Part shown: positions 7,644-28,855 of the stretch, piece by piece
How positions within the stretch are numbered: the first letter of the stretch is position 1
Layout of the letters: each line of letters starts with the position of its first letter
Assembly: GCF_033097365.1 (NCBI RefSeq)
Contig: NZ_AP028461.1
Coordinates: 12,055,501 to 12,119,500, forward strand
Origin: Actinoplanes sichuanensis
GTDB lineage: Bacteria > Actinomycetota > Actinomycetes > Mycobacteriales > Micromonosporaceae
Direction: 5' to 3'
DNA: 64,000 nucleotides
Position numbers and translations under genes: made by a program
Notes under the pieces: generated by a model
Database searches by the model: none
Told to the model about the DNA's origin: nothing
The model's input: the letters and a program-made list of their open reading frames with translations, nothing else

Positions 7644-7719
7644 TGGTGGGAGGACCATCGGTCGTCACCCGGCGCGGGTACCCTACCGACGACATCCCCT
7701 GTGGCTGGAGGACTGCCGA

Positions 7720-9944: not shown

Positions 9945-10186
9945 GACTCCTTCTCGCATCCGGACGAAGTCTCGTGAAGCCTGAGTGTAAACGTCCTCTC
10001 ACCATATGAGAACCAGCGTTGCTCCGGCTTCGCGGAGCAGGCCCCAGCTGACGTAGTGCAGAGCAGCGCTGGAGGCTCGCCGAAGTGGCCGGTGCGGTCG
10101 CGGCATTGATGATCACGGCCACCATCCGCTGTTGGCCAAGACCCGTGCCTAGACCCAGTCCTCTGCCGTCCCATGCTCGAAGCCTC

Positions 10187-10474: not shown

Positions 10475-11566
10475 GTGAATTCCGCCGACGTCGAGCAGGC
10501 CGCCCTCCCGGTCCGATGCCTAGACCAAGTCGCGTTCCCAGAGCTGTCCGCCAGTGCGCAGTACAGCTGTTGGAACGGCGTGGGGCGATCGTTCAGCGTC
10601 GGCTCCTGTCGCCTGCCGGACACGCTGTTGCCCGGCGAAGTGCTCGTGTCCGTCGATGTGGCCACGATCTGCGGCAGCGACGTGAAAACCGTTTCCGGGC
10701 AGCGGCGCGTTGCCGAGCCCAGTGTCCTCGGACACGAACAGGTTGGCACGGTTGTCGCCACCGGCGTCGGCGCCTCCGTCGCAGTGGGGCAGCGTGTGGT
10801 GTGGTCGGTGACCAGCTCCTGTGGCCGGTGCTCGCGGTGCTCGACGATGCCGCAAAAGTGCCTGAGCCTGCGCAAGTACGGGCATGAGCCGCTCGATGAG
10901 TTCCGGCCGCTGACCGGAGGTTTCGCCAGCCACTGCCTGTTGTGGCCCGGCACGACGATCGTGCCGGTTCCCGACAGCGTTCCGAATGAGGTAGCCAGTC
11001 CGGCTGGGTGCGCTTGGGCTACGGCGGTGGCGGCGGTGGCCGCCGCAAGCCCGATCCGGGTGGGAGGCCGTGCCCTGGTTGTCGGCACGGGGATGCTCGC
11101 GATCGCGGTGACCGCCTTGCTGGCGCAACGCGGGATCCATGTCATCGTGCTCAGCCACGATCACGAGCGTGGGCGACGGCTGCTGCGCTTCGGTGCCGCC
11201 AAGGTGACCGATGCCGCGGCCGACATCGACGTGGCGTTCGAGATGTCCGGCCGCGCCACCTCGGTAGCGGTCGCGGCCGGTTCTCTGGCGGTCGGGGGCA
11301 CGCTCGTCCTAGCCGGATCGGTGTCGCCCGGGCCGGCAGTGGCGATCGACCCGGAGCACATCGTGCGTAGCCTGCTCACGATCACCGGGGTGCACAACTA
11401 CCGGCCTGCTGATCTGCGTACCGCGGTCAGCTTTCTCACCGAGCACCAGGATCAGTATCCGTTCGCCGAGCTGGTTGCCGGCCGATGGCGCCTCACCGAG
11501 ATGGACGAAGCCTTCGCCGCTGCCCGGACCGGGGGTGTCCGGCAGTGTGTTGTGCCCAGCGTTTGA
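10475..11566 (+). CDS. Zinc-dependent alcohol dehydrogenase, phosphonate-type
   Basis: About 363 aa; GTG at 10475 with GAGGAG 6 nt upstream. It is a medium-chain dehydrogenase: CGSDVKT (catalytic Zn Cys), GHEQVG (His-Glu), the structural-Zn cysteines CGRCSRC...KC, and the Rossmann motif GTGMLA. The KCLSLRKYGHE...GGFASH stretch resembles the subgroup often found with phosphonate genes (HpnZ-like, from memory). In this cluster its likely job is reducing phosphonoacetaldehyde to 2-hydroxyethylphosphonate, the substrate of the dioxygenase at 13985. Bialaphos-type pathways use an iron-dependent reductase (PhpC) for this step, so the role here is inferred from context. It could instead act on hydroxymethylphosphonate. 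Confidence 0.85.
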   Translation: MNSADVEQAALPVRCLDQVAFPELSASAQYSCWNGVGRSFSVGSCRLPDTLLPGEVLVSVDVATICGSDVKTVSGQRRVAEPSVLGHEQVGTVVATGVGASVAVGQRVVWSVTSSCGRCSRCSTMPQKCLSLRKYGHEPLDEFRPLTGGFASHCLLWPGTTIVPVPDSVPNEVASPAGCAWATAVAAVAAASPIRVGGRALVVGTGMLAIAVTALLAQRGIHVIVLSHDHERGRRLLRFGAAKVTDAAADIDVAFEMSGRATSVAVAAGSLAVGGTLVLAGSVSPGPAVAIDPEHIVRSLLTITGVHNYRPADLRTAVSFLTEHQDQYPFAELVAGRWRLTEMDEAFAAARTGGVRQCVVPSV

Positions 11567-11859
11567 CCTCGCCTGACCGCCGGTGCCGTCGCGAATGGCA
11601 TTCAGCACGATCGCGCCCGGTGGCCCATGCAAATGCCGAATCGATCCGCCGGTCGAAAGCAATCCGGTTCGGAGATCCACCGATGTCAGCACGTCCCGCG
11701 ACAGTCCGTGGCGCGGCGTGGTGCTGGGGCGTGACAGCGGCGGGGCCCATCCGGTCGCTTCGGGCCGACGAAACCAGCGCCGTCCCCTCTCGGAGGAGTG
11801 TTCATGATTCGGGTTCAGGTATTCGCCCGTCGGCTCACCTGCACAGGAAGGCCGTCGCT

Positions 11860-12861
11860 GTGGTGACGGCCGCACTGAGTGCCCGTCTGCTGCGGGTCAT
11901 GGAGGCGACACGGCCAACACCACTGATCCAGCTCGATCATCCGACGGTGAATCTGTTCTGCAAGCTCGAGTCGAGCAACATCACCGGTAGCACCAAGGAC
12001 CGGTCCGCGTATGCGATCTTGACTGAAGCGGTCGAGGCGGGGCTGGTCACGGGCCGCACGACCTTGGTCGAGTCGTCCTCCGGCAACTTCGCGGTGTCTC
12101 TGGCCATGCTGTGCCGGCTGCTGGGGGTGCCGTTCATCCCGGTCATCGACCCGAGCATCAACGTCCAGACCGAACAGGTCTTGCGGGCCGGCTGCGAGCG
12201 GGTGGAGAAGGTCGTCAACCCGGACGGGCATGGTCACCTGCCCGCACGCATCGACCGCGTGCAGCAGCTGCGGGCGCAGATTCCCGGCGCTTACTGGCCC
12301 AATCAGTACGCCAACCCCGCCGCGGCGCGCGGGCATTTCACCTTCACCGGCGCCGAACTGTGCGCGGATCTTCCTGACGTCGACTACGTGTTCGTCGGGG
12401 TCGGCACCGGCGCGTGTCTCGCCGGGATCTCCCAGCGGGTCAAACAACACCGGCCCCGGGCGAAGGTGATCGCCGTCGACGTCGAGGGATCGGTCATCTT
12501 CGGCGGGCCCGCCGGCCGGCGCCGTATTCCCGGTATCGGATCGCTGATCCAGCCGAGCCTGGTCAAGGCGGCGATCGTCGACGAGGTCGTCGTCGTGGCC
12601 GAAGCCGATACGGTCCGCGCCTGCTGGCAGCTGCTACGCCACGGTGTGCACGCCGGCGGGTCCACCGGCAGCGTGCTGGCCGCGATCAACACCTACTTCG
12701 CCGACTATCGCGGTCCGCGGCCCACCGTCGCCTTCCTGTGTGCCGACCGAGGCAGCGCCTACACGCAGACGATCTACAACCCCCGCTGGGTGCACGACGA
12801 GTTCGACATCCGCGTCACCGGTCCGGACGCCTTCGTACCGGTCCGCGCAGCCACCACCTGA
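11860..12861 (+). CDS. sbnA: SbnA-like N-(2-amino-2-carboxyethyl)-L-glutamate synthase
   Basis: About 333 aa from the GTG at 11860, with AGGAAG 9 nt upstream. A fold-type II PLP enzyme of the cysteine synthase family: Lys near residue 47 in GSTKDRS, and SSSGNFAVSLAM as the substrate loop. Several blocks track staphyloferrin B SbnA closely: AYWPNQYAN, VDVEGSVIFGG and a C-terminal CADRG. SbnA joins O-phospho-L-serine and L-glutamate to give the precursor of L-2,3-diaminopropionate. The next gene encodes the matching SbnB. An ordinary cysteine synthase is less likely given the GSVIFG motif. The 290-bp gap upstream shows no gene. Confidence 0.85.
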   Translation: MVTAALSARLLRVMEATRPTPLIQLDHPTVNLFCKLESSNITGSTKDRSAYAILTEAVEAGLVTGRTTLVESSSGNFAVSLAMLCRLLGVPFIPVIDPSINVQTEQVLRAGCERVEKVVNPDGHGHLPARIDRVQQLRAQIPGAYWPNQYANPAAARGHFTFTGAELCADLPDVDYVFVGVGTGACLAGISQRVKQHRPRAKVIAVDVEGSVIFGGPAGRRRIPGIGSLIQPSLVKAAIVDEVVVVAEADTVRACWQLLRHGVHAGGSTGSVLAAINTYFADYRGPRPTVAFLCADRGSAYTQTIYNPRWVHDEFDIRVTGPDAFVPVRAATT

Positions 12862-12897
12862 GCAGGCACCAGCGACGTCGAGGAGCGCAGCAGCACG

Positions 12898-13917
12898 ATG
12901 AACGGACCCCCTGAACCGGCCTTCGCCGTCATCGCGGCCGACGCCGTCACCGACGCGGTGAACGGTCACCACGCCGCATGCCTGGACGTGATCCGCCGCG
13001 CCTACCTGGCACACGCCCACGGTGAAACGGTGCTGCCCCACAGCACGTTCGTCCGGCCCGATCCGCCACGCCCGGAACGGTTCATCGCCCTACCGGGATA
13101 CCTCGGCGGGGAATTCGGGGTGGCCGGGATGAAGTGGATCGGCAGCTATCCGGACAACGTCGCCGCCGGCCTCGACCGGGCCTCGGCCGTGCTCGTGCTC
13201 AACGACACCGGCACGGGGTATCCGTTCGCGGTTCTCGAGGGGTCGGTGATCTCTGCAACCCGGACGGCCGCGTCGGCGGTGCTCGCCGCGGAGCAGCTCG
13301 CCGGCCGGCGTAAAGCCTCCCGGGTGGGCGTTGTCGGCACCGGCCTGATCGCCTCGCACGTTTGCGCGTTCCTGCGCGAGCTCGGCTGGGAGATCGGTGG
13401 CTACACCCTCAAGGACGTCTCCCGAGACCGCGCCGGCGCCTTCAAACGCGAGCTGCTCGACAAGGGTGCAGCCGCGGTCCGGATCACCGGAGACGTCGTG
13501 GACCTGTTCGACGAATGCGACCTGGTCCTGCTGGCCACGACCGCGAGCACCCCATACCTGCTCGACCCGGCTCTGCTGGCCAATTCCCCGGTCGTGTTGC
13601 ACCTGTCGCTGCGTGACCTCGGCCCGAACCTCATCGCGGTGAGCCAGAACGTCACCGACGACGTCGAGCATGCCGTCCGGGAACGGACTTCGCTGCACCT
13701 GACCGAGCAGATGCTCGGCAACCGCGACTTCGTCAGCGGCACCATCGCCGACTTGCTCGAGGGACGGCTGCGCCGTGACGGCCGACCGGCCGTCTACTCA
13801 CCGTTCGGCCTGGGGGTGCTCGACCTCGCCCTCGGCCAGTGGATCTACCAGCGGTGCCGCGACCACAGTCCGGTCGCCACCATCCCGGGCTTCTTCCCCA
13901 CACCGGGCGCCCGATGA
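12898..13917 (+). CDS. sbnB: SbnB-like dehydrogenase (ornithine cyclodeaminase family)
   Basis: About 339 aa. GVVGTGLIASHVCAFL near residue 142 is the NAD-binding motif of the ornithine cyclodeaminase/mu-crystallin family. MKWIGSYPDN and the SATRTAASAVLAAEQLA stretch are family hallmarks. SbnB oxidatively cleaves the SbnA product to L-2,3-diaminopropionate and 2-oxoglutarate. The pair predicts a dedicated diaminopropionate supply for the peptide part of the product. It starts 36 bp after sbnA and precedes the dioxygenase on the same strand. Confidence 0.87.
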   Translation: MNGPPEPAFAVIAADAVTDAVNGHHAACLDVIRRAYLAHAHGETVLPHSTFVRPDPPRPERFIALPGYLGGEFGVAGMKWIGSYPDNVAAGLDRASAVLVLNDTGTGYPFAVLEGSVISATRTAASAVLAAEQLAGRRKASRVGVVGTGLIASHVCAFLRELGWEIGGYTLKDVSRDRAGAFKRELLDKGAAAVRITGDVVDLFDECDLVLLATTASTPYLLDPALLANSPVVLHLSLRDLGPNLIAVSQNVTDDVEHAVRERTSLHLTEQMLGNRDFVSGTIADLLEGRLRRDGRPAVYSPFGLGVLDLALGQWIYQRCRDHSPVATIPGFFPTPGAR

Positions 13918-13984
13918 CCGCCGCAGTACCGGCAGCACCCCGGTGGCCGAGTCCTCCCGTTACCTCATGCACCGAAAGGCGGTG

Positions 13985-15358
13985 ATGTCGATGCCCGACA
14001 CCGACATACTGCAGGATCCTGCGGTCCAGGCGCGGCTGTCAGCGCTGCTGCGCTCGACGGCGAACGACCTGAAACGCCCTGACGCGTACGCCGACACCGA
14101 CCTCGGACTGCCCACGGGCACGTTCGCGCGGCTGGTCGACGGCGCCGAGCCGGTCAGCTGGCAGGTCCTGGTCGCTGCGGCCGCGGCCTGGCCGGTCAAC
14201 CTGCGTGACCTGCTGCCGTTGCAGGACGACACCGACCGAGACGTACGGATCTTCCACGCCGCCGAGTCCGAGGCCAGCTCCCGCATCCTCGACCGGGCCG
14301 GCCGCCCGTACTACGAGTACCGCGACACCGTCATGTCACGGCTCGGCTCGTTTCGGCCCGAGTGGATCCGGATGCTGTGCACGGTCGCGGACAACGAACC
14401 GGACAACCGGGCCGTGCAGTGGAACCGCGGCCACCTGCTCTACCAGCTCACCTACGTCGTCGGACCGGTCAACTACTACTGCAGCTGGAACGGCACCCGC
14501 CGGTGCATCCCGATGCGCACCGGTGACTCGGTCTTCGGGCTGCCGTACGCGCCACACTCGTTCACCAGCCGCGACCCCGACGAGCCCGCCTACATCCTCG
14601 CGCTGACCTACGGCGGGGACCTGACCGGCGACCCGCAACGCGAACTGGCCGTGCTGGGCGAGCAAGCCGCTCACGACCTCGCCTACCACCCGGACGGCCA
14701 CCTGTTCGCCCAGCTGCTCACCTCGTTCCTGCACGCGAAGATGCTCAGCCCGGCCGAACTCGCCGGGCGCGCCGGGCTGGATCCGCGTCGCGTCGAGGCG
14801 CTGCTGACCGGCAAGGTGTCCCCGCCGCCGACGGAACTGGCGCAGCTGGCCGCGGGGCTGCGCGTCAACGTGCGCGACCTGATGCCGGTCACCAGCGCCA
14901 CCACCGACGGCATCAGCGTGCAGTTCGCCGCCGACGCCCGTCGGTGGCGCACCGGCGCCGACGGCGCGGCCGCGTACGAGATCACCGAGCTGGCCGGCGA
15001 CCCGCTGCACCCGCACACCACCGCCGTCGAAGTCCGGCCGCTGCTCCCGCAGCCGACCGATGCGGCCTGGACGCGCACGTACCAGCACCAATACGTGTAC
15101 GTGCTCGAGGCCGACGGCACCCAGATGAGCTGGGACAGCGGCGGCCGGCAGCACGATGCCGAACTGCACGCCGGCGACTCGGTCTACCTCAAACCGCAGG
15201 TGCCGGTCGCGTTCACCGGCACCGGGCGGCTGCTCGTGCTGCGTATCGGCGGCGCCGTGCGCGCCGACGTCCGGTTCGCGCTCGGCCACATGGCCGGCGG
15301 CGGACAGGACCGCTACGTCCGCGACACGCAGCTCTGGTACAGCAACGAAGGGAAATGA
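13985..15358 (+). CDS. HEPD/MPnS-family non-haem iron phosphonate dioxygenase
   Basis: About 457 aa, near the length of known 2-hydroxyethylphosphonate dioxygenases. It is built as two HTH-plus-cupin halves. In the first cupin (GHLLYQLTYVVG, then GDSVFGLPYAPHSF), His150, Gln154 and His191 form a 2-His-1-Gln triad, the arrangement reported for methylphosphonate synthase and the Streptomyces albus HEPD. The second cupin (HQYVYVLEADG, KPQVPVAF) lacks the second His and is probably structural. Expected reaction: 2-hydroxyethylphosphonate plus O2 to hydroxymethylphosphonate plus formate. The PhpE-like dehydrogenase and aminotransferase downstream favour HEPD over methylphosphonate synthase activity. 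The start at 13985 is chosen for AAAGG 5 nt upstream; 13991 is possible. Confidence 0.88.
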   Translation: MSMPDTDILQDPAVQARLSALLRSTANDLKRPDAYADTDLGLPTGTFARLVDGAEPVSWQVLVAAAAAWPVNLRDLLPLQDDTDRDVRIFHAAESEASSRILDRAGRPYYEYRDTVMSRLGSFRPEWIRMLCTVADNEPDNRAVQWNRGHLLYQLTYVVGPVNYYCSWNGTRRCIPMRTGDSVFGLPYAPHSFTSRDPDEPAYILALTYGGDLTGDPQRELAVLGEQAAHDLAYHPDGHLFAQLLTSFLHAKMLSPAELAGRAGLDPRRVEALLTGKVSPPPTELAQLAAGLRVNVRDLMPVTSATTDGISVQFAADARRWRTGADGAAAYEITELAGDPLHPHTTAVEVRPLLPQPTDAAWTRTYQHQYVYVLEADGTQMSWDSGGRQHDAELHAGDSVYLKPQVPVAFTGTGRLLVLRIGGAVRADVRFALGHMAGGGQDRYVRDTQLWYSNEGK

Positions 15359-15359
15359 C

Positions 15360-16226
15360 GTGAACCGACTCGCGCACCGATCCACCCAGCTGCGGCAGCT
15401 GCTGGCAGGGCCGGCGATCGTGCGGGCGGTCGGCGGGCACGACGCGCTGACCGCCAAACTCGCCCACGCCGCCGGGTTCGAGACCATGTGGGCGTCCAGC
15501 CTCGCCGCGTCCGCCAGCCACGGCGTGCCGGATGCGAGCCTGCTGACGATGACGCAGTTCCTCGACATCGCCGAGTCGATGACCCAGGCGTCACCGCTGC
15601 CGGTCATCGCCGACTGCGACACTGGCTTCGGGGACGCCCGCAACGTCGCCTACGCGGTCGCCCGGTATGAGGCCCGCGGGATCGCCGCGATGTGCATCGA
15701 GGACAAGCGGTTCCCCAAGCTGAACAGCTTCGCCGACGGCGGGCAGGATCTGCTGCCCGCTGCAGAGTTCGCCGCCAAGATCCGCGCCGGCAAGCAGGCC
15801 CAAACCGATCCGGCGTTTCTGCTCATCGCCCGCACCGAAGCGTTCATCGCCGGCCGGGACCTCGCCGAGGCGCTGGACCGCGCGCACCAGTACGCCGATG
15901 CGGGCGCCGACGCGATCCTCGTGCACAGCAAGAGCGTGCACCCGGACCAGGTGCTCAAGTTCGCCGCCGCGTGGGACCGAGACCTGCCCCTGATCGCGAT
16001 CCCGACGACCTACCCGCAGGTCACCGAAGCGGAGCTGCTCGCCGCCGGGTACCGGGTCGTCATCTACGCCAACCAGGGGCTGCGGGCGACCGTCAGCAGC
16101 GTGCAGGACATGCTGCGCGTGCTGAGCCAGGCCGGGAATGCCGCCGCGCTGGAGGAGCGGCTCGCGCCGATGCAGGCGGTGTTCGACCTGCAAGGCATGC
16201 CCGACGCCTACCGGACCGCGCCATGA
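15360..16226 (+). CDS. pepM: Phosphoenolpyruvate mutase
   Basis: About 288 aa, GTG start directly after the dioxygenase stop. The diagnostic PEP mutase motif EDKRFPKLNS is intact near residues 114-123, and DCDTGFGDARN supplies the Mg-binding acidic residues. This combination separates it from isocitrate lyase relatives, which carry a Cys-containing motif instead. It rearranges phosphoenolpyruvate to phosphonopyruvate, the first step of most phosphonate biosynthesis. It overlaps the decarboxylase gene by 4 nt (ATGA). Confidence 0.96.
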   Translation: MNRLAHRSTQLRQLLAGPAIVRAVGGHDALTAKLAHAAGFETMWASSLAASASHGVPDASLLTMTQFLDIAESMTQASPLPVIADCDTGFGDARNVAYAVARYEARGIAAMCIEDKRFPKLNSFADGGQDLLPAAEFAAKIRAGKQAQTDPAFLLIARTEAFIAGRDLAEALDRAHQYADAGADAILVHSKSVHPDQVLKFAAAWDRDLPLIAIPTTYPQVTEAELLAAGYRVVIYANQGLRATVSSVQDMLRVLSQAGNAAALEERLAPMQAVFDLQGMPDAYRTAP

Positions 16227-17356
16227 CCAGCGCCGCGGCGTTCCTGGACGCGCTGGCCGGCATCGGTGTGCGGTTCGTGTCCGGCGTCCCGTGCTCCTAC
16301 TTCAGCGCACCGCTGCAGCTCATCGACACCCACCCCGACCTGACCTATGTTCCCGCCGCGAACGAAGGCGGTGCGCTGGCCGCCGCGGCCGGGGCTCAGC
16401 TGGCCGGCACCGGCAGCGCCGTGCTCATCCAGAACTCCGGGTTCGGCAACCTGATCAACCCGTTGACGTCGCTGCTGCTGCCGTACCGGATCCCGGTGCT
16501 GATCGTCATGAGCATGCGCGGCTGGCCGTCGGCGACGGCCGGGGAACCCCAGCACCGGATCATGGGGCAAGTCGTCCCGAGCTGGTTGCGCACCATCGAC
16601 GTGCCGTTCGCCGAACTCACCGCCGGCGGTCCGCAGGTGACCGACGTGTTCGACCGCGCCGTACAACACCTGCAGCAGGGCGACCCGGTCGTGCTGCTCG
16701 TCGGCAAAGGCGCCATCGAAGCGGCACCAGGCCCCGCAACGGCGCCGCCGCAGGGGACCACCGGCACCACGCTTGTCACCACCGTGCTGGAGCAGCTGCG
16801 CAGCGACGAACCGGTCCTGTCGACCACCGGATACCTGTCCCGGGCACTGTTTCAGGCCGGCGACCGGCCCGGCAACTTCTACATGCAGGGCTCGATGGGA
16901 CACGTGGCCGCCGTCGCGCTCGGCGTCGCCCTGCAACACCCGACACAGCGGGTCGTCGCCCTCGACGGCGACGGCGCCGCCCTGATGCACCTCGGCACCT
17001 TCGCCGCCGTCGGCGGTGCCGCACCGTCGAACCTGGTGCACATCGTGTTCGACAACGGCGGCTACGAATCCACCGGCGGTCAGCCGGTCCCCGCCACCGT
17101 CGACTTCGCCGCCGTGGCGGCGGCGTGCGGCTACCGCACCACCCTGACCGCCGACGACGAACCCGGTCTGCGCGACACGGTCACGCACGCGCTGTCCGCG
17201 CCCGGCCCCGTCCTGCTCACCGTCCGCGGGGTGCCTGGCGGCGCCGCAGGCGGGACACGCGCCTCCGAAGGCATCACCGTGGACGCGATCGCCACCCGGT
17301 TCCAGACTCAGCTGACCGGACCAGCCCCGCACCACTCTCAACGGAGCGACCGATGA
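16223..17356 (+). CDS. ppd: Phosphonopyruvate decarboxylase
   Basis: About 377 aa, the usual size for single-chain Ppd. The N-terminal PYR domain contains FVSGVPCSYF and AANEGGA (the activating Glu). The C-terminal PP domain carries the thiamine diphosphate motif GDGAALMHLG ending in FDNGG, near residues 250-280. It decarboxylates phosphonopyruvate to phosphonoacetaldehyde, pulling the unfavourable mutase equilibrium forward. It is coupled by ATGA overlaps to pepM and to the dehydrogenase downstream. Confidence 0.95.
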   Translation: MTSAAAFLDALAGIGVRFVSGVPCSYFSAPLQLIDTHPDLTYVPAANEGGALAAAAGAQLAGTGSAVLIQNSGFGNLINPLTSLLLPYRIPVLIVMSMRGWPSATAGEPQHRIMGQVVPSWLRTIDVPFAELTAGGPQVTDVFDRAVQHLQQGDPVVLLVGKGAIEAAPGPATAPPQGTTGTTLVTTVLEQLRSDEPVLSTTGYLSRALFQAGDRPGNFYMQGSMGHVAAVALGVALQHPTQRVVALDGDGAALMHLGTFAAVGGAAPSNLVHIVFDNGGYESTGGQPVPATVDFAAVAAACGYRTTLTADDEPGLRDTVTHALSAPGPVLLTVRGVPGGAAGGTRASEGITVDAIATRFQTQLTGPAPHHSQRSDR

Positions 17357-18381
17357 CATCACCTGCGGTGCTGTACACCGATCCCGCCTGGCTGATCACG
17401 GCGGCCGGCCACCCGGATCCGGTACTGGCCGGCATCGAGCAGCAGATCCTGACCGGCGTCGACCTGCGATTCGGGCCACACGACGGCCACCGCTACCTGC
17501 ACGACGACTCCGCACTGCACGCCGCGGCCGACGGTGTCCAGGTCCTGGTCGTCTACCGCTGCCAGGTCACCCGGGAGCTGCTCGACGCGGCCGGCCCCGG
17601 TCTGAAAGCGGTGATCCGGCAAGGCGTCGGGGTCGACAACCTGAACCCCGCACTACTGGCCGAGCGCCGGATCCCGGCCTACAACATCCCGGACTACTGC
17701 GTCGGGGAGGTGTCCGCGCACACCGCCACGCTCGCCCTGGCCCTGGAACGGCGCCTGATCCCGCAGCACCAGGGCCTGACCGGGGGCACCTTCGACATCT
17801 ACGCCGGCGGTGTCCCACGTCGATTGTCCGAGCACACCCTCGGCATCGTCGGATTCGGCCGCATCGGCCGGGCCGTCGCCCGTCACCTCGGCGCCTTCTA
17901 CGGCCAGACGCTGGTCTTCGACCCATACCTCGGTGCGGACCTGCCGGCAGGCTACGGCGCCCGCGCCGTAGCGACCCTGCACGATCTGCTGGCCGCATCG
18001 GACCTGGTGACCCTGCACTGCCCCCTCGACCCCAGCACCGACGGCATGCTCGACGTCGAGGCGTTCCGGCACATGCGGGCCGGCGCCTACCTGGTCAACG
18101 CCGCACGCGGCCGCCTGATCGACCCGGACGCCCTCGCGGGCGCGCTCGCCGACGGCCGGATCGGCGGCGCTGCACTCGACGTGTTCTCCCCGGAGAACCC
18201 GCACACCGATCCTCGCTGGAAACCGGTCCTCGAGCACCCCGCCGTACTCGTCACCAGCCACCGGGCGTTCCTGTCCACCGAGGCCGAGCTCAGCAGCCGC
18301 CGCCGGGTGGCGCAGATCGCCCGCGACGTCCTCGACGGCCGGCCCGTCACCGTCGGCCGCGTCCTGCCGGGGCTGCGATGA
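17353..18381 (+). CDS. D-2-hydroxyacid dehydrogenase family protein, PhpE-like
   Basis: About 342 aa. NAD-binding GFGRIGRAVA starts near residue 167. The catalytic Arg is in NAARGRLID, the Glu in VFSPENP and the His in TSHRAF, so the triad is complete. PhpE in phosphinothricin biosynthesis belongs to this family and oxidises hydroxymethylphosphonate. Here, next to an aminotransferase, oxidation to phosphonoformaldehyde is the likely step. A phosphonoformate-forming variant cannot be excluded. ATGA overlaps on both sides. Confidence 0.85.
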   Translation: MTSPAVLYTDPAWLITAAGHPDPVLAGIEQQILTGVDLRFGPHDGHRYLHDDSALHAAADGVQVLVVYRCQVTRELLDAAGPGLKAVIRQGVGVDNLNPALLAERRIPAYNIPDYCVGEVSAHTATLALALERRLIPQHQGLTGGTFDIYAGGVPRRLSEHTLGIVGFGRIGRAVARHLGAFYGQTLVFDPYLGADLPAGYGARAVATLHDLLAASDLVTLHCPLDPSTDGMLDVEAFRHMRAGAYLVNAARGRLIDPDALAGALADGRIGGAALDVFSPENPHTDPRWKPVLEHPAVLVTSHRAFLSTEAELSSRRRVAQIARDVLDGRPVTVGRVLPGLR

Positions 18382-19451
18382 CCAGCGTGCCGCTGTCCCA
18401 GACCGCCCGGCAGCACCTGCCGGACGGGACTATCGACCTTGCCGGCGGGGATGTCCGGATCCCGTTCCCGCATCCCGACGTGTCCGCCCCGCTGCTCGGT
18501 CCCGACGACCAGCCGTACCCGCCGACGGCCGGCAGCCGCGAACTGCGCGAACTGATCGCCGCCGCGGCGGGACCGGCCACGGTCACCGCGGAGCAGGTGG
18601 TGGTCACGCCGGGCGCCCGCGCCGCAGTGTTGCTCACCCTGCTACGAGCAGCCGGCGGCGAGGTGCTGCTGCCGACCCCGCGGTGGGGCAGCTACCCGGT
18701 CCTGGCCACGATGGCCGGCGCCCGGCCGGTCAGCTACGGCCCCTATCCGCACGTCGACGCGCTGGACGCTGCCCGCACCGCGGCGACGGCCGTCGTCGTG
18801 GTCAACAGCCCGCGCAACCCGGACGGCACGGTCGTCGACGCGGCAACCATCACCGACGTGCTCGCCTGGGCTCAACAGCACGACATCACCGTGCTGTTCG
18901 ATCAGGTGTACCGCGGCGTCGCCGCCCACCGGACCCCGTCGCCGCTGGATGTCGCCGGCCCGCTGCCGCAGCACTGCGTCATCGTCGACGGGCTCACCAA
19001 GAGCCACGCCGCCGCCGGCATCCGCATCGGGTGGGCTATCACGGCAGGCCTGCATCAGCCGCTGACCGCCGCCGCGTCGCACCTGATCGGCGGCGTCGGC
19101 ATCCGCGCTCAGCAGGCCGCCGTCGCCGCACTGCGTCAGCCACCCGGGCCACGCCAGCAGGCACTGGCCGACCTCGCCGCACGCACCCGGGCCGCCGCCG
19201 CCCAGCTCGACCAGATTCCCGGCGTCACCTGCCCCACCCCGGACGCCGGGTTCTTCCTCTTCCCCGATCTGCACGGCTGGCTCGCCGACACCGACGTCGC
19301 CGGCTGGCTGCGCCACCACCACCGTGTGGCCGTCGTCGACGGCGACGCTTTCGCCGCGCCCGGCCACATCCGCGTGTCCACGGCCGTGCCCGATCACGAC
19401 CTCACCACCGGGCTGCGCCGGCTGACCGCCGCCCTCACCACCCACCCCTAA
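18378..19451 (+). CDS. PLP aminotransferase class I/II
   Basis: About 357 aa. NSPRNPDGT is the fold-type I Asn/Pro motif, LFDQVYRG carries the Asp/Tyr pair, and the PLP lysine is in GLTKSHAAAGIRIGW near residue 208. The position after the PhpE-like gene suggests that it aminates phosphonoformaldehyde to aminomethylphosphonate. Argolaphos-type compounds are the known precedent for that building block. Making 2-aminoethylphosphonate directly from phosphonoacetaldehyde is the alternative, but it would leave the dioxygenase and dehydrogenase without a role. Confidence 0.85.
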   Translation: MTSVPLSQTARQHLPDGTIDLAGGDVRIPFPHPDVSAPLLGPDDQPYPPTAGSRELRELIAAAAGPATVTAEQVVVTPGARAAVLLTLLRAAGGEVLLPTPRWGSYPVLATMAGARPVSYGPYPHVDALDAARTAATAVVVVNSPRNPDGTVVDAATITDVLAWAQQHDITVLFDQVYRGVAAHRTPSPLDVAGPLPQHCVIVDGLTKSHAAAGIRIGWAITAGLHQPLTAAASHLIGGVGIRAQQAAVAALRQPPGPRQQALADLAARTRAAAAQLDQIPGVTCPTPDAGFFLFPDLHGWLADTDVAGWLRHHHRVAVVDGDAFAAPGHIRVSTAVPDHDLTTGLRRLTAALTTHP

Positions 19452-19471
19452 AACCGCTGCCGACCCATGAC

Positions 19472-19536
19472 GGAAGGAGGCCCAGCGCGCCACCTCCACC
19501 GCGACGTGCGGTGGCGACGCGCGCTGACCCGCCATG
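19472..19536 (+). promoter_or_regulatory. Distant ribosome binding site bridged by a hairpin
   Basis: A strong GGAAGGAGG lies at 19472-19480, but the only usable start is the ATG at 19534, 53 nt away. Between them CAGCGCGC (19483-19490) pairs perfectly with GCGCGCTG (19519-19526), with an inner stem CCACCGC/GCGGTGG (19496-19502 and 19508-19514). Folding this hairpin leaves 9 nt between the ribosome binding site and the ATG, the ideal distance. Structure-assisted initiation is known for phage T4 gene 38. No other ribosome binding site precedes the ATG. Confidence 0.55.
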
Positions 19537-20985
19537 ACCGCATCCACTGCCGTTGAGATCATCGCCCGCCCGCCGGACCGCAACCGTGACCTGATCGCCG
19601 AGTTCGGCCGCAACCACCTGCGCTACGACGGGGCCCCGTTTGCCGGACTGCTGTCCCCGACCTCCACCCTGATTCCCGCCGCCGCCCGTAACCGGCTGTA
19701 CGGCGACGCCCGCGCCGTCGACGGCTGGTACGAAAACCTGCTCGACCTCTACCTGGACCTGCTGAACACCCACGGCGGCGACCACGACATGGTCCGCGCC
19801 CTGGAGTGGGGCCTCGACGACGACATGCGGCGGCTGCAACGCGAGTCCGCGGCCCGCCGTGACCGGCCGCGGATCGCCCGCCTCGACTGCGTCGACCTCG
19901 GCAGCGACCACTTCGTCACCGAAGTGCAGTGGAAAGGCGCCGGCGAAGGATGGCTCGCCGCGATAGACCGGTCCTACCGCAGCATGTTCCCGCTCCAGGA
20001 CGGCCACCGCCCGTTCGGCGATCTCGTGGCCGGCTGGGCGGGCGTGTTCACCGGGGACGGATGCAGCGTCAACACCGGCCGGCGTGGCTGGGGCGACGCC
20101 GAGCAGTTCCTCAACGCCGAGGTCGCCGCCCTCGGCACCACCCTCACCTGGTCCGACTTCGACGACATCACCAAGATCCTGCGCGTCGACGGCGGCCGCA
20201 TCCTCGTCGACGCCGGCGACCGAAGCGTTCCGCTTAACCACCTGTTCCTGGACCGGCTCACCGAGGTCATGCCGATCAGCCTCATCGACGCGCTCGTCAA
20301 CGCGGCCACCGCGGGCACCATCATCCTCGACACGCCGCCGAGCTACCTGTTCAACCAGAAGGTGCCGCTGGCCCTGCCGTTCACCCCCGGCTACGAACAC
20401 TACTTTTCCGACGACATCCGCCGGACGCTGATCCCCACCATCCTGCTCGACCCCGGCCACCCGGACCTGGAACGGCTCGCGCCGTTCCTGCGCCACGACG
20501 ACCGCGACACCGCCGCACACGCCGACTCGTGGGACGACGTGGTGAACCTGCCCGAGCCGGTCCGTGGCCTCATCGTGCTCAAATGCGGATCGATCGACCA
20601 GTACCACAACCACGGCGGGCAGGGCGTCTTCCGGCTCGACGGCAGCCCCGAGCAGGCCGCCGCCACCCTCAAGACCGTCCTCGACCGGGCCGTGGCCCAC
20701 GGCGAGCCGTGGGTCGTCCAGCCGTACCTCGGCCACCGATGGCAGGTCCCGGCGACAGTGATGTCCCGGCCGGACGAGTTGACCACCCTCGACCTGCACG
20801 CCAAGTTCGGCGTCTACCTGCACCTGTTCCGGGCTCCCGGCGTGACCCCGCGGATCCTCGGCGGGGTCGCCAGCCTCGGCACCACCTGGAAGGTGTCCGG
20901 CGCCTCCAAGACACCAGCATTCGTCAGCGAGGACGGCACCTGGCACGGCGCCTTCCGTCACGACATCCGCGTCGCCGACGCGTGA
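19534..20985 (+). CDS. Divergent ATP-grasp-like protein, putative peptide ligase
   Basis: About 483 aa. I do not recognise a named family, but the C-terminal half has ATP-grasp features: LKCGSIDQYHNHGGQGVF (a Lys followed by a Gly-rich loop), then WVVQPYLGHRWQ. The mid-protein SYLFNQKVPLALPF and a closing GGVASLGTTWKVSG recall ligases of the glutathionylspermidine synthase or circularly permuted type. Context (phosphonate plus diaminopropionate genes) suggests amide-bond formation. It starts the second half of the operon after the hairpin at 19483-19526, which may set its level. Confidence 0.65.
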   Translation: MTASTAVEIIARPPDRNRDLIAEFGRNHLRYDGAPFAGLLSPTSTLIPAAARNRLYGDARAVDGWYENLLDLYLDLLNTHGGDHDMVRALEWGLDDDMRRLQRESAARRDRPRIARLDCVDLGSDHFVTEVQWKGAGEGWLAAIDRSYRSMFPLQDGHRPFGDLVAGWAGVFTGDGCSVNTGRRGWGDAEQFLNAEVAALGTTLTWSDFDDITKILRVDGGRILVDAGDRSVPLNHLFLDRLTEVMPISLIDALVNAATAGTIILDTPPSYLFNQKVPLALPFTPGYEHYFSDDIRRTLIPTILLDPGHPDLERLAPFLRHDDRDTAAHADSWDDVVNLPEPVRGLIVLKCGSIDQYHNHGGQGVFRLDGSPEQAAATLKTVLDRAVAHGEPWVVQPYLGHRWQVPATVMSRPDELTTLDLHAKFGVYLHLFRAPGVTPRILGGVASLGTTWKVSGASKTPAFVSEDGTWHGAFRHDIRVADA

Positions 20986-21009
20986 CCCGGCCCCAGGAAG
21001 GCAGATCCT

Positions 21010-22362
21010 GTGCGTGAAACCCTGTTCCGGGCCGCGCAGCCGACCGGAACCACACCCTCGGAAGAACTCGTCGGACAACTGCAGGACCCCGACCTGACCC
21101 GGCGATGCTGGGACCAGTCGCTCGCACCCATCACCACCACCGCGGCGGCCACCGTCTCGGCGCATGCGGCGACGATCCTGTGGCCGTATCCGGCCGGCAC
21201 CGCCGACTGCGTCGACCGCGCCAACTGCGCCGACCACTTCCTGCGCGCCAACCCCGGCTACCACGTCGTGACCCCGCTCGGCCTCGCCCACCCCGACGTC
21301 GACCGGCTCCTCGACTGCACCGACGTGGTGCTGTTCCTGCCGTTCGAGAACGCCGCCGACGAACTGACCGTCGCCGGCAGCCACCTGCAGATGCGCGGCC
21401 GGCAGATCGACGCCGTCATCAGCGAACTCGCCCCCGGCTACCTGTGGCGGCACGGCATCCTCGACCTGGACCCGCAACAGCCTCGCTGGCCGCTGGAGAC
21501 CCACCTGGTCAACGGACACCTGATCGCCGCGCACAAAGGGCAGCAAGCCCGCCACTTCGCCGCCTACTGCCGGCAACAAGCGGACATCGTCGCGCTCGAC
21601 ACGATCGTGGTGGCAACTCTCGAGGAACTCACCGGCGCGCTCGAACACCTCCTCGATGGCAGTCGCGCCGCCGTCCTGCGACCGTTCAGCGCGTCGCAGG
21701 GAACCGGTGTCACGTTCGTCGACCGCGACCACCTCATTCGCAGCGGTGGACCCGAGGCCGCGGCTGCCCGCGCCATCGCGCAGATCTCCGCCGCGCTGGC
21801 CCGAAAGTACGGCAGCCCCGAACCGTTCCCCCTGATCGTCACCCCATTCACCGAGGCGGCCCGCCTCGAGGGCTGCGTCACCGACATTCGGATCTTCGTC
21901 TGCCACGACCCGTCCTCCGACGGGTTGCGTGGCCTGCCCGGCATGGTCCGCCGCGCTCAGGTGCCCCTCGACAGCGCCGGACCGGTCACCGCCGCGGCGG
22001 CGCTGACGAACCTCAACGCCGCCCCGGCACCGGCGGCGATCTCTGGCCCGAGGTTCTTCCCGGCGACCGACCCGCAGATCCTCGCCGCGCTCGGGCTCAC
22101 CCCCGACGACCTGATCCGCCTGTGCGCGCACGCCACCGCGATCTGGGCCACCGCGATCCAACCCCACGGTCATCCCGGCGCCCGGGGGCGATTCGCGTAC
22201 GGCAGCGTTGACTTTGTCATCCGCCACTCCGACGGAATCGCGGTTCCGGTCGAGATGAACGGCACGAACGTCGGCTCGCACCCGACGGTGCATCCGCGCT
22301 GGTGCCACGCTTTCGGCGCAGCAACCACACACGCGCTCACTCAGCTGGGATTCGCGCGGTGA
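21010..22362 (+). CDS. ATP-grasp-like protein, putative peptide ligase
   Basis: About 450 aa from the GTG at 21010, with AGGAAGG 8 nt upstream. ATP-grasp features: VLRPFSASQGTGVTFV as the Lys/Arg plus Gly-rich loop, IVTPFTEAARLEGCVTDIRIF as the central strands, and a C-terminal VEMNGTNVGSHPTVHP that would supply the Mg-binding Glu and Asn. The N-terminal 180 residues match nothing I know. It probably forms one of the amide bonds of the product. The stop overlaps the next start (GTGA). Confidence 0.65.
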   Translation: MRETLFRAAQPTGTTPSEELVGQLQDPDLTRRCWDQSLAPITTTAAATVSAHAATILWPYPAGTADCVDRANCADHFLRANPGYHVVTPLGLAHPDVDRLLDCTDVVLFLPFENAADELTVAGSHLQMRGRQIDAVISELAPGYLWRHGILDLDPQQPRWPLETHLVNGHLIAAHKGQQARHFAAYCRQQADIVALDTIVVATLEELTGALEHLLDGSRAAVLRPFSASQGTGVTFVDRDHLIRSGGPEAAAARAIAQISAALARKYGSPEPFPLIVTPFTEAARLEGCVTDIRIFVCHDPSSDGLRGLPGMVRRAQVPLDSAGPVTAAAALTNLNAAPAPAAISGPRFFPATDPQILAALGLTPDDLIRLCAHATAIWATAIQPHGHPGARGRFAYGSVDFVIRHSDGIAVPVEMNGTNVGSHPTVHPRWCHAFGAATTHALTQLGFAR

Positions 22363-23306
22363 CGGCGCCACACCGCACCCGCCGCGCCATCGGCGCGACC
22401 GTCAGCGTCAACACCACCGTCGGAGCTCCCGGTCCCACCGCCGTGTTCACCGTCCCTAACCTACCGGCGGCAGCAGACTGCGAACTGCTGCTGCGCCGCT
22501 GGTATCCGAGCCTGCGACAGCAGATCACGTTCAGCAAGGCGTTGGTCGTCGCCCCCACCGGCGCCGGCCGGTTCATCTGCCGGTTCTTGCAGATCATCGG
22601 ACCCGCCGAGGCGATGTTCGGAGCCGCGCGAACCGGCCGCGACTGCGTCAATTCAATGATCGCGGCCTACCCCGCCGTCGCCCGGCCGGCCACCACCATG
22701 ACGCTGGAGAACGTCGACACCGGCCTCACCCTGACCGCGACACCCGCCGACGAACGCACCGTCGACGTCGCGGTGCAGCCGGCGCGGCCGGTCCAGCCCG
22801 CCGCGGCACAGCTGCCAACACCGGGCGGCCGCGGCATCCTGGCCTTGCACGTCAACAACCCGTACGTGCTGCTCGACGCCGGTGAGGCGGGCTTGACCGC
22901 TGGTGAGCTGCTGCGCCTCGACGGACCCGCCGACCCGGGCCTGCTGCGCCCGTTCGCGGACGCCGTCGCCCAGGTGCAACAGCACCTTGAGCTGCCCCTC
23001 GCCGGAGACCTACCGAAGCTGGCTGTCGTCGCCGCCGACGGCCCGGACGTCCTGGCCGCCCGCACCGTCTACCTCGGCCGCTGGCACCCCGGCCTGCCCC
23101 TGACCGCCGCCACCACATTCCTCACCGCCACCCAGATCCCGCAGTCACCCTGGCCCGGCCCCGCCGTACCGCAGCACGGACTACGGCTGCGGAGCCCGGC
23201 CGCAGACATCCGAGTCACGACCCGCGTCAACCACGACGGCGCGCTGGTGTCATTCGGCATCCCAGCCAGGGAGGTAACCCGTGACATCCCAGCCCGAAGC
23301 ATCTGA
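22359..23306 (+). CDS. PrpF/DapF-fold protein, putative epimerase or isomerase
   Basis: About 315 aa from the GTG at 22359. The pattern fits the PrpF (DUF453) branch of the diaminopimelate-epimerase fold: ITFSKALVVAPTGAGRFICRFLQI, a Cys-containing DCVNS where PrpF has a CGNS-like motif, LHVNNPYVLLDAGEAGLT, and PKLAVVAADGP. The fold uses two opposed acid/base residues to move protons; a second Cys is not obvious. DapF relatives racemise amino acids in antibiotic pathways (for example DcsC in cycloserine). With a D-Ala-D-Ala-ligase-like gene overlapping by 26 nt, conversion of a building block to its D form is plausible. Confidence 0.65.
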   Translation: MTAPHRTRRAIGATVSVNTTVGAPGPTAVFTVPNLPAAADCELLLRRWYPSLRQQITFSKALVVAPTGAGRFICRFLQIIGPAEAMFGAARTGRDCVNSMIAAYPAVARPATTMTLENVDTGLTLTATPADERTVDVAVQPARPVQPAAAQLPTPGGRGILALHVNNPYVLLDAGEAGLTAGELLRLDGPADPGLLRPFADAVAQVQQHLELPLAGDLPKLAVVAADGPDVLAARTVYLGRWHPGLPLTAATTFLTATQIPQSPWPGPAVPQHGLRLRSPAADIRVTTRVNHDGALVSFGIPAREVTRDIPARSI

Positions 23307-24288
23307 CCCGGCACCGATCACCGCGCAAGCCATCGCGACCGCCCGGCAACTGCTGGCCGGCAGCACCGTATGCCTGCTCGCCCGAGAACAGCCGTCACCG
23401 ATCGAGGCGGCCGAGCTGGCCGGATTCGCCCAGACGCTGCCGGGCTGCGGCGTGACCGTGACCGCAATCAGGTTCGCTGACGTGCACGAGCTGTACCGTC
23501 CGGCCGCGATCCAGGCGCTCGGCGCCGCGGCGGTGGTCGTCAAGTTCACCCACGGCCCCCTCAACCGCAGCGGTCTGGTCCCGGCTGTCCTGGACACGCT
23601 CAGTGCCCGCCGGGCCGGCCACCCACCGTCCGTGGACATCCTGTCGCAACGAAAAAGCCTGGTCAAAGAGCTGATGCGGCGCGAGCAGGTGCCCACCCTG
23701 GACTACCTGCTCCTCGACGGCGGGGTGCCTGTCGGTGCGCAGGTAGCGCAGCTGGCTGCCCGGACCGGTGCCACCGCTTTCGTCGTCAAGCCCGACGACG
23801 GCAACGCCAGCGAAGGCCTGCACTGGGTCGGCTCCGTCGAGGACGCCGCCCGCATCGTGCACGACAGCGGCGGCCGGCTGGTGGTGGAGCCGTACCGGCG
23901 GGGCCGGATCATCACCGTCGGCGCGGTAACCCTGCTCGGGCAGGTCCGCACCGTCGCCCCGCTGGAATACCTCCTCGACGGCGACCTGGTCATGGACGCC
24001 GACTGGAAGCGAAACCCGAAACGGGCTCCGGCCAGGCTAGAACCGTCCGTCGACGCCGAGGTCCGCACCTATGCGGCACGGGTGCACCGGGCCGTCGGCG
24101 CCCGCGGGCTGTCGCGCACCGATTTCATCGTCGGCCCGGACGGCGTCACCGCCTTGGAGATCAACACGAACATCGGCCTCGGGCCCGGCCACGACATCGC
24201 CGCAGCGTTCGACGCCACCGGGCTCGACTACGACGATCTCGTGATCTGCCAGACGGCCAGCGGCCTACCGCTGCCCGGTCAACGGTGA
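23281..24288 (+). CDS. D-Ala-D-Ala-ligase-like ATP-grasp ligase
   Basis: About 335 aa; the GTG at 23281 has GGAGG at ideal distance, inside the end of the previous gene. ATP-grasp features in order: LSQRKSLVKELMRREQVPT, FVVKPDDGNASEGL (Lys and Gly-rich loop), VVEPYRRGR, GLSRTDFIVG and ALEINTNIGLGPGHDIAAA (Mg ligands). The end, ATGLDYDDLV, is typical of Ddl. It probably couples amino acid units with ATP, forming an acyl-phosphate intermediate. Substrates are inferred to be diaminopropionate and/or aminomethylphosphonate. The last 24 nt overlap the convergent purD. Confidence 0.8.
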   Translation: MTSQPEASDPAPITAQAIATARQLLAGSTVCLLAREQPSPIEAAELAGFAQTLPGCGVTVTAIRFADVHELYRPAAIQALGAAAVVVKFTHGPLNRSGLVPAVLDTLSARRAGHPPSVDILSQRKSLVKELMRREQVPTLDYLLLDGGVPVGAQVAQLAARTGATAFVVKPDDGNASEGLHWVGSVEDAARIVHDSGGRLVVEPYRRGRIITVGAVTLLGQVRTVAPLEYLLDGDLVMDADWKRNPKRAPARLEPSVDAEVRTYAARVHRAVGARGLSRTDFIVGPDGVTALEINTNIGLGPGHDIAAAFDATGLDYDDLVICQTASGLPLPGQR

Positions 24289-25503
24289 CGGCAGGCCGAT
24301 GTCCGTACGCATGACCGCGCCATCGAGGGTTACCCGGCCGGCCAGCTCGTACGCGGCAGCTCGGGCCTCGTCAAGGGTGTCGCCGAGCGCGGTACAGCAG
24401 ATTGCCCGGCCGCCGGTGGTTACCAGCTGCTCGCCCTCGGTGAGGCGGGTACCGGCATGCAGGTAGCCAGGCCCCTCTGCGCCGGTGATGGCGTCACCGG
24501 AACTCGGCTGTTCCGGATAGCCCTTCGACGCGATCACCACCGTGACTGCCGCCTGGTCGTGCCAGCGCAGCGGCTCCAGCTGGTCCAGGGTGCCGTTGGC
24601 AGCGCGGTAGAACAGCTCGGCCGGGCTGGTCCGCAGCAGTGGCAGCAGGACCTGTGCCTCCGGGTCGCCGAACCGGACGTTGAACTCGATGACCCGCGGC
24701 CCCTGCTTGGTCAGGCACAGCCCGACGTACAGCAGCCCGGCGAATGGGGCTCCACGCCCGGCCATCTCTTTCAGCACCGGATGCACGACGGACTGCAGGA
24801 CGTCGGACACCAGATCGTCGCCGACCCAGGTGATCGGTGCGTACGCGCCCATCCCGCCGGTGTTCGGGCCGGTGTCGCCGGTGCCGACACGCTTGTAGTC
24901 CTGCGCGAGCCGCATAGGGACCGCAGTGGTGCCGTCGGTGACCACGAACAACGAGATCTCCGGACCGTCCAGGAACTCTTCGACGACCACCCGGCCACAG
25001 CCGGCGGCGTGCTCGAGCGCCACCGACTGGTCATCGGTGACCACCACACCCTTACCGGCGGCCAGCGAATCGTTTTTCACCACGTACGGGGGGCCGAACT
25101 CGTCGAGCGCCGCAGCTACCTGCTCCGGGGTGGTGCAGGAGTGGGACCGAGCAGTGGGGACATCGGCGGCCACCATCACGTCCTTGGAGAACGTCTTGGA
25201 GCCTTCCAACTCTGCGGCGGCGCGCGTCGGGCCGAAACAGGCGATGCCCGCGGCCTGGACGGCGTCAGTCACACCGGCGACCAGCGCAGCCTCAGGGCCG
25301 ACGACGACCAGATCGGCGCGGAACACAGTCGCTGCGTCGGCCACCGCGTCGGCGTCGGTAGGGCTCACCGTGAACAGCTCACCGAGTCGGCCCATCCCAG
25401 GGTTGCCCGGGGCCGAGGCCACTGCGGTGACCGACGGGTCGGCGGCGAGGGCTGTGGCGAGGGCGTGCTCACGCCCACCGGAACCGACAACGAGAACACG
25501 CAT
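24265..25503 (-). CDS. purD: Phosphoribosylamine-glycine ligase (GAR synthetase)
   Basis: About 412 aa, normal PurD length. The start at 25503 gives the standard N-terminus MRVLVVGSGGREHAL. Other hallmarks are EGSKTFSK, the ATP-grasp loop SLAAGKGVVV, GDTGPNTGGMGAYAP and EFNVRFGDPEAQ. It ligates glycine to phosphoribosylamine in purine synthesis. The usual K-A-D-G before LAAGKG reads KNDS here, a mild deviation. It stands alone, convergent with and overlapping the phosphonate operon, away from other pur genes. As aminomethylphosphonate is a glycine analogue, a second, tolerant copy could give self-resistance. It may equally be the only purD. Confidence 0.93.
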   Translation of the reverse strand: MRVLVVGSGGREHALATALAADPSVTAVASAPGNPGMGRLGELFTVSPTDADAVADAATVFRADLVVVGPEAALVAGVTDAVQAAGIACFGPTRAAAELEGSKTFSKDVMVAADVPTARSHSCTTPEQVAAALDEFGPPYVVKNDSLAAGKGVVVTDDQSVALEHAAGCGRVVVEEFLDGPEISLFVVTDGTTAVPMRLAQDYKRVGTGDTGPNTGGMGAYAPITWVGDDLVSDVLQSVVHPVLKEMAGRGAPFAGLLYVGLCLTKQGPRVIEFNVRFGDPEAQVLLPLLRTSPAELFYRAANGTLDQLEPLRWHDQAAVTVVIASKGYPEQPSSGDAITGAEGPGYLHAGTRLTEGEQLVTTGGRAICCTALGDTLDEARAAAYELAGRVTLDGAVMRTDIGLPSPLTGQR

Positions 25504-25872
25504 GGCGACATGGTAGGGCAAGCCATCACATACCGGAATGGCGTCACTCGCTCGTGTCGGGACCTGCTGAGGTTCTCAGGTCGGGATCGCGTCAGTGCAT
25601 CAGGAAAAAGCGCTGCGGATCGGGCGAGGGTGAACGGCAGCAGAAACGAGCGCCATCAGCCACCACGATCCCCTCCAGACAAGGAGGTCGACCGCAACGA
25701 CCGGCCGACCGTCCTCTGACGCCCTGCCGTCGCCTCACCCACCCGGCGAGGCGACGGCAGGTGCATTGTTCTTCGCCTTCGGCCGTCTTGCTCAGCGGGT
25801 TGTGCGGTTCGCGTGGTCTTTGGGACCATTTCCCGACTGTGACCGACGCCATCCGGATCGGGAAGGAGCGGC
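25504..25872. other. Intergenic region between purD and an XRE-TPR regulator
   Basis: Divergent promoter space. No tRNA or convincing small gene is visible. A 29-codon plus-strand frame ends at 25719 directly before a strong hairpin (25723-25761), but its GTG lacks a properly spaced ribosome binding site. A smaller inverted repeat GACCTG/CAGGTC surrounds 25560-25582. Confidence 0.5.
25723..25761 (+). terminator. 14-bp perfect stem-loop, terminator-like
   Basis: CCTGCCGTCGCCTC (25723-25736) pairs perfectly with GAGGCGACGGCAGG (25748-25761) across an 11-nt loop, followed by the T-rich TGCATTGTTCTTC. This is the strongest terminator-like element seen in the window. There is no annotated plus-strand gene just upstream, so it may end a small RNA or insulate the regulator at 25873. 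Confidence 0.55.
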
Positions 25873-27854: not shown

Positions 27855-28014
27855 CGGCCGGCTCGGTCGAGGTCCCCTGCGTCGACACGCCGAACTGCCG
27901 TTAGGGCCGCCGCCGGCCGGGCGCCGGAGGATGCCGAACAGATCGATGCCGATGATCACTATGCGGTCCGACCGCTGTCGTGTTTCTGCAGTTCACGATG
28001 AACTTCGCCGCGTA

Positions 28015-28822: not shown

Positions 28823-28855
28823 CCCATCACCTCTTTCAGGACGAGGAGCACCTCC

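Follow-up and report, generated by a model that had tools for sequence, protein, structure and literature searches.

What would a bacterium make from a gene cluster that holds the enzymes of phosphonate synthesis beside those of L-2,3-diaminopropionate (Dap) synthesis? This question is raised by a 64,000-nucleotide stretch of the Actinoplanes sichuanensis genome (the window; positions 12,055,501-12,119,500 of a one-contig genome of 12.14 Mb), in which 12 genes, labelled A to L, all lie on the plus strand and span 10475-24288. We consider it probable that this is a hybrid cluster, in which a module for aminomethylphosphonate (AMP) has merged with an independent Dap-peptide cassette to give a joint phosphonopeptide. 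The families that an earlier note had listed were all present on the one strand: phosphoenolpyruvate (PEP) mutase, phosphonopyruvate decarboxylase (Ppd), a zinc alcohol dehydrogenase (ADH), a dioxygenase of the hydroxyethylphosphonate dioxygenase/methylphosphonate synthase (HEPD/MPnS) type, a dehydrogenase, an aminotransferase, SbnA and SbnB, a protein of PrpF/DapF fold, and the ligases. That description overlooked a convergent second purD (gene M) and the separability of the two halves. From B (SbnA) through L the genes form an operon in which neighbours are separated by 82 nt at most; only 1 nt lies between D and E, and the pairs E/F, F/G, G/H, J/K, and K/L overlap. Genes D to H sit between what appear to be the two parts of the Dap cassette, sbnAB and the ligase genes.

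The aminomethylphosphonate module

The AMP module would comprise A and D-H, and lead from PEP through phosphonopyruvate, phosphonoacetaldehyde, hydroxyethylphosphonate (HEP), hydroxymethylphosphonate (HMP), and phosphonoformaldehyde to AMP. Gene E (PepM, 15360-16226) scored 191.5 bits with PF13714, over the cut-off, and carries EDKRFPKLNS at residue 114, which fits EDKxxxxxNS, the PEP mutase motif. Gene F (Ppd, 16223-17356) scored 334.8 bits with TIGR03297 (cut-off 312.5), the model for the second-step enzyme of PepM phosphonate clusters. Gene A (10475-11566; N-terminus uncertain, with several candidate starts) encodes a zinc-dependent alcohol dehydrogenase of the MDR type (PF08240/PF00107). 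It reached 325.0 bits with TIGR03366, a 'phosphonate catabolism associated' ADH model, just short of the cut-off of 328.1, and is proposed as the phosphonoacetaldehyde reductase that substitutes for the iron-dependent ADH of argolaphos clusters.

Gene D (13985-15358) is assigned as a class II HEPD, predicted to convert HEP to HMP. Compared with solved structures, D matched HEPD first (6b9r, 458 bits) and MPnS second (6b9s, 274 bits). It carries His150, Gln154, and His191, presumably the metal ligands. Its Tyr164/Gly185 pair shows the same 21-residue spacing as Tyr158-Gly179 of AlpG, the argolaphos enzyme that turns HEP into HMP; in the argolaphos paper this pair is termed diagnostic of class II HEPD (PMC8976061). 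D was rejected as an MPnS on the score and on the Tyr-Gly pair.

Genes G (17353-18381) and H (18378-19451) would complete the route. G is a D-2-hydroxyacid-dehydrogenase-like protein, which the earlier note had called PhpE-like. The dehydrogenase assignment stood, and the protein is better named AlpK-like, as an enzyme that would oxidise HMP to phosphonoformaldehyde in concert with the aminotransferase. H is an AlpL-like pyridoxal-phosphate aminotransferase of class I/II (PF00155), predicted to convert phosphonoformaldehyde to AMP. Among the plasmid-encoded matches listed for G and H the best were 44% and 31% identical, while D gave no match in plasmids.

We searched D against 394 genomes of the class at E 1e-20, and three were positive: the genome itself, G1348 (locus L051), and G1334 (locus L053). 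The L051 gene order is HEPD-PepM-Ppd-FeADH-dehydrogenase-aminotransferase, and the order D-E-F-G-H is identical in the window, with identities of 54% for D, 58% for E, 54% for F, 67% for G (337 aa), and 49% for H (365 aa). An NDK-like and a GNAT/FemAB-like gene stand beside the L051 module, and both are listed for the argolaphos cluster (PMC8976061). L051 served as proxy for the argolaphos AMP genes in the comparisons of gene order and identity. L053 is a further, more distant phosphonate locus, with an HEPD/MPnS-type dioxygenase 32% and a PepM 37% identical to those of the window; neither G nor H had a relative there at E 1e-5, a weak contrast as stretches of L053 read N.

In vitro, AlpK and AlpL together form AMP from HMP, using NAD(P)+ and either glutamate or aspartate; in a Streptomyces host, too, the argolaphos enzymes gave a little AMP (PMC8976061). 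Because D-H are syntenic with L051 and the activities of AlpG, AlpK, and AlpL are published, the window very probably makes AMP, judging from its genes, and the route from PEP to AMP drawn in the earlier note is supported.

The diaminopropionate cassette and its distribution

Both Dap genes passed curated NCBIfam equivalog cut-offs, which supports the L-Dap supply proposed before. B (SbnA, 11863-12861; GTG start with AGGAAGG just upstream) scored 358.2 bits with TIGR03945 (cut-off 349.95), and C (SbnB, 12898-13917) scored 364.2 bits with TIGR03944 (cut-off 326.9). SbnA would join O-phosphoserine and glutamate to N-(1-amino-1-carboxyl-2-ethyl)glutamic acid (ACEGA), and SbnB would convert ACEGA to L-Dap and 2-oxoglutarate.

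The Dap presumably goes to the ATP-grasp ligases I (19534-20985), J (21010-22362), and L (23281-24288). L, a D-Ala-D-Ala-ligase-like protein, is the only one of the three whose single sequence matched a family model (PF07478, 48.3 bits); the single sequences of I and J gave no Pfam, NCBIfam, or PDB match. The predicted models of I and J are ATP-grasp folds, I of the glutathione/glutathionylspermidine-synthetase type (circularly permuted ATP-grasp) and J a carboxylate-amine ligase distantly related to YheC/D. The three ATP-grasp-like ligases claimed earlier were thus recovered, L by its family model and I and J by predicted model only. A kinship of I and J was discarded at a profile comparison probability of 0.6%.

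Gene K (22359-23306) is nearest to the PrpF/LigU-type isomerases. A 9-row profile of its family matched LigU-type (4E)-oxalomesaconate isomerases (6p3k) at E 4.5e-9, in the C-terminal half only. PF04303 appeared in 2 of the 9 members at E 0.05 or worse, and SsgA touched 3 of 9 at 0.0071 or worse, which is taken as chance. Lys60 and Cys96 are invariant in the 9 rows (alignment A3), and we assume them to be the catalytic pair. A role as a Dap epimerase of the diaminopimelate-epimerase type is not favoured, with one invariant Cys only and solved relatives that are all PrpF/LigU-type isomerases; of the PrpF/DapF fold suggested before, the PrpF side was kept. Close relatives of I (91%) and K (84%) were found in Actinoplanes sp. 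HUAS TT8, and one of J (86%) in Actinoplanes campanulatus.

Scanned with the J alignment, the genome contigs gave a single locus, L007, a 12,475-base contig of a Peribacteraceae (Patescibacteria) metagenome-assembled genome (MAG, G354). A co-directional series on L007 encodes SbnA (truncated where the contig ends), SbnB, J, K, L, I, and PurD, followed by an alpha/beta hydrolase and a GNAT protein. Identities to the window were 47% for SbnA, 29% for SbnB, 45% for J, 31% for K, 34% for L, 38% for I, and 35% for PurD, and the HGxLNRSG motif of L is common to both copies. The L007 SbnB scored 317.2 bits (cut-off 326.9) and the partial SbnA 257.3 bits over model positions 110-304 of 304. No phosphonate genes were found on L007 and no PepM in the MAG. 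The window genes lacking an L007 counterpart are A and D-H, the AMP genes, while I, J, L, and PurD are all common. The co-occurrence of SbnA, SbnB, three ligases, and the isomerase without pepM in another phylum is a new observation, and on gene content the cassette appears separable.

L007 agreed in tetranucleotide composition with two other contigs of its bin (r 0.90-0.92, for the cassette and for the whole contig; no other Patescibacterium served as control), and its PurD pairs with a PurD on another contig of the same bin. Correct binning is favoured by this composition agreement and PurD pairing.

The cassette is rare. Protein I was found in only the A. sichuanensis genome among 67 genomes of the genus. 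Alignments of J, with only four first-look candidates scored per genome in the actinobacterial samples, recovered only that genome in the family sample (354 genomes, own included), that genome and one weak partial match (G644) in the phylum sample (396), and that genome and one distant match (G1372, 33.5% identity) in the class sample (394). In the class of the Peribacteraceae MAG (288 genomes) only that MAG was found, and J had no match in plasmids or viral contigs. J homologues were rejected as cassette markers, since no cassette gene was seen near the G1372 copy (L055/L056, by BLASTP) or the partial G644 copy (L010/L045, by reading open reading frame lists). These relatives stand alone, so the J family extends beyond the cassette.

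Homologues of I, J, and K elsewhere appear to lie on common contigs, to judge from coinciding sizes of the longest contig listed. Homologues of I and J were listed with contigs of equal size in three cases (4102, 17267, and 27706 bases), J and K in one (4214), and I and K in one (11596698). In Plantactinospora WMMB334 the I, J, and K homologues carry locus tags 29685, 29690, and 29695 and share a contig size of 8426601. One J homologue (P0042) continues into an SbnB-like domain, although the entry looks frame-shifted near its end.

The second purD

Gene M (24265-25521, minus strand; start 25503 or 25521) is a second purD (phosphoribosylamine-glycine ligase), convergent with L and overlapping it at the 3' ends. 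It scored 435.4 bits with TIGR00877 (cut-off 288), and the other purD of the genome, at 9370313, was also over the cut-off. Two full-length purD genes were found in 3 of the 60 genomes searched (A. sichuanensis, G1045, and G691) and, among 36 genomes of the genus, in A. sichuanensis only; G058 has purD as two halves on two contigs. The Peribacteraceae MAG has three PurD homologues over the cut-off, one of them adjoining a purF-like gene.

M keeps 94 of the 101 residues invariant in 20 actinobacterial PurDs (18 of the genus) and the purF-linked Patescibacterial PurD. In leave-one-out controls two more distant actinobacterial rows missed 7/108 and 5/106, and the other 18 missed 0-2. The L007 PurD misses 26 of the 101 conserved residues and its sister copy 25. 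By residue conservation M looks like a working glycinamide ribonucleotide (GAR) synthetase, and the L007 copy less so.

In the PurD tree M falls among the actinobacterial PurDs on a long branch, and the L007 PurD (L019) pairs with L020 of its own MAG. A common clade of M and the L007 PurD was not found; the long branches (M, L019, and others) were flagged as liable to attract, and placement is cautious. The extra purD was apparently recruited independently in the two loci. These two apparently independent placements beside the same rare cassette, few as two cases are, suggest that the extra purD is linked to it, as immunity or as a catalytic part.

The second purD may also be an unrelated neighbour, or part of a downstream purine-like set (folE, queD, queE, and a phosphoribosyltransferase) that begins near 28214. 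M lies on the strand opposite to the cluster and, in keeping 94/101 residues, resembles an ordinary GAR synthetase. On the other hand, PurD is co-directional after I in L007, no such purine set lies in those 12.5 kb, and in both genomes the gene is additional to another copy. We regard the unlinked reading as somewhat unlikely.

The proposed joint product and known systems

The AMP and Dap supplies are well supported, and the most probable interpretation is that a single peptide contains both units. We infer the following scheme for substrates, residue order, the roles of K and M, and the target. I, J, and L, together with K, would build and modify a short Dap peptide, and the product would be a small phosphonopeptide, independent of nonribosomal peptide synthetases (NRPS), that contains Dap and probably carries AMP at its C terminus. 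Since L007 also has I, J, L, and PurD, no recognised ligase is peculiar to the window cluster, and AMP would enter by a ligase that uses another amine there, or would stay unjoined. Our guess is that I adds AMP in the window and another amine, perhaps glycine, in the Patescibacterial version, on the grounds that AMP is glycine's phosphonic analogue and that the fold of I is that of glutathione synthetase, which adds glycine. M would be tied to the cassette as a spare target for self-protection or as a further ligase.

Several points weigh against this explanation. E fell below the strict TIGR02320 cut-off (281.2 against 319.55 bits). L051 was called argolaphos-type from gene content only. Only two full cassette neighbourhoods were read, of which the L007 contig begins inside sbnA; L007 has a low coverage of 3.9x and may still be misbinned, and the lack of pepM in a 1.3 Mb MAG with no completeness given is weak evidence. 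The cassette also occurs in another phylum, in a MAG that yielded no pepM, so AMP need not be what the ligases evolved for, and each half could serve a product of its own.

The alternative that follows is two pathways side by side, with AMP or some unrelated phosphonate coming from the AMP genes and a phosphorus-free peptide from the Dap cassette. Each half does stand without the other, the Dap cassette in the Peribacteraceae MAG and the AMP module in L051, where no match to SbnA/B, I, J, K, or L was found across the 27 kb of L051 and L052 that were compared; two upstream GNAT proteins and PurD could form amides too. However, D-H stand between sbnAB and the ligase genes, and no gap there exceeds 82 nt. 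Of the 20 window proteins scanned, the ligases, M, and the two GNATs were the only ones recognised as candidates for forming an amide, whereas argolaphos has putative ligases of its own, AlpC, AlpF, and AlpO (PMC8976061). We consider separate products unlikely.

It is very unlikely that the phosphonate unit is not AMP, with D making methylphosphonate or G oxidising HMP to phosphonoformate, the step proposed for PhpE: HEPD and MPnS share a fold, and D has a Gln four residues past the first His, like MPnS, but D aligns far better with an HEPD having the same Gln, it has the Tyr-Gly pair reported for the HMP-making AlpG (PMC8976061), and the gene after G encodes an aminotransferase, just as in the AMP cluster.

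The joint phosphonopeptide remains our preferred reading. A bolder form of it would have the AMP module inserted into a Dap cassette of Actinobacteria and Patescibacteria, with glycine swapped for AMP, a product that hits GAR synthetase or some other step that consumes glycine, and, in both phyla, an extra purD that serves as the immunity copy; this we think unlikely.

Established antibiotics and herbicide leads are found among the phosphonopeptides, few of which are known to contain AMP. As stated earlier, no phosphonate with Dap was found in the open-access literature searched, a scope outside which most subscription papers fall. The term 'diamino' is absent from the main text of a 2026 review curating 71 reports (PMC13302981), and a 2025 survey covering 940 actinomycetes refers to argolaphos and to AMP obtained with the argolaphos genes (PMC12723261). 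If AMP feeds Dap-using ATP-grasp ligases, a new structural class may result, with a phosphonate product of undescribed type. The cluster would then also add two ligase families that escaped the Pfam and NCBIfam models here, and it would be a clear example of module swapping in which phosphonate takes the place of carboxylate. If binned correctly, the Peribacteraceae cassette would represent a small-peptide pathway that is unusual for a Patescibacterium, and the extra purD gives a concrete target hypothesis.

The cluster is flanked by two NsdA-family regulators (NF053720, cut-off 75), one at 8565-9959 on the minus strand (141.7 bits) and one at 25873-27150 on the plus strand (100.7 bits), the latter a possible cluster boundary. 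Upstream lie GNAT genes at 5629-6201 (plus) and 6409-6984 (minus), a PCC-domain protein at 7185-7643, and an alpha/beta hydrolase at 7717-8553; no match was seen at E 1e-3 between these GNATs and hydrolase and those of L007. Downstream, on the plus strand, are a creatininase-family gene (27141-27854), GTP cyclohydrolase I (28214-28822), and a QueD-like gene (28856-29239), followed by a QueE-like gene (~29236-29949), a phosphoribosyltransferase (~30011-30430), a methyltransferase (30400-31278), and a radical SAM gene (31403-32434). The genes at 27141-32434 look like a separate 7-deazapurine-type set.

Among known systems, the argolaphos (alp) AMP sub-pathway AlpG-AlpL shares with the window a class II HEPD, PepM, Ppd, an AlpK-type dehydrogenase, and an AlpL-type aminotransferase in the same order, by way of L051. 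The argolaphos AlpJ is an iron-dependent ADH, also present in L051, while the window cluster genes show only the zinc MDR ADH (PF08240). Argolaphos has the YqcI/YcgG arginine hydroxylase AlpD, whereas PF08892 was not found at E 1e-3 in the 20 window proteins scanned; the scan of the cluster genes likewise recognised no NDK, nucleotidyltransferase, or FemAB-type ligase. Unlike argolaphos, the window cluster has sbnAB, three ATP-grasp ligases, and a PrpF-like protein. The bialaphos and phosalacine clusters share the PepM, Ppd, HEPD, and PhpE-like dehydrogenase logic as far as HMP, but their later phosphinothricin genes and NRPS were not recognised among the window genes scanned, where an aminotransferase follows the dehydrogenase.

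With staphyloferrin B and other SbnA-SbnB clusters the window has in common SbnA and SbnB at equivalog level, and no siderophore synthetase or NRPS was recognised among the cluster genes scanned. The dapdiamide cluster likewise combines an SbnA/B-type Dap supply with ATP-grasp ligation, although dapdiamides are without phosphonate; I, J, and L gave no match at E 1e-3 to the dapdiamide DdaF model NF041595. In the Peribacteraceae cassette I is located after L, in contrast to the window, where I stands before J.

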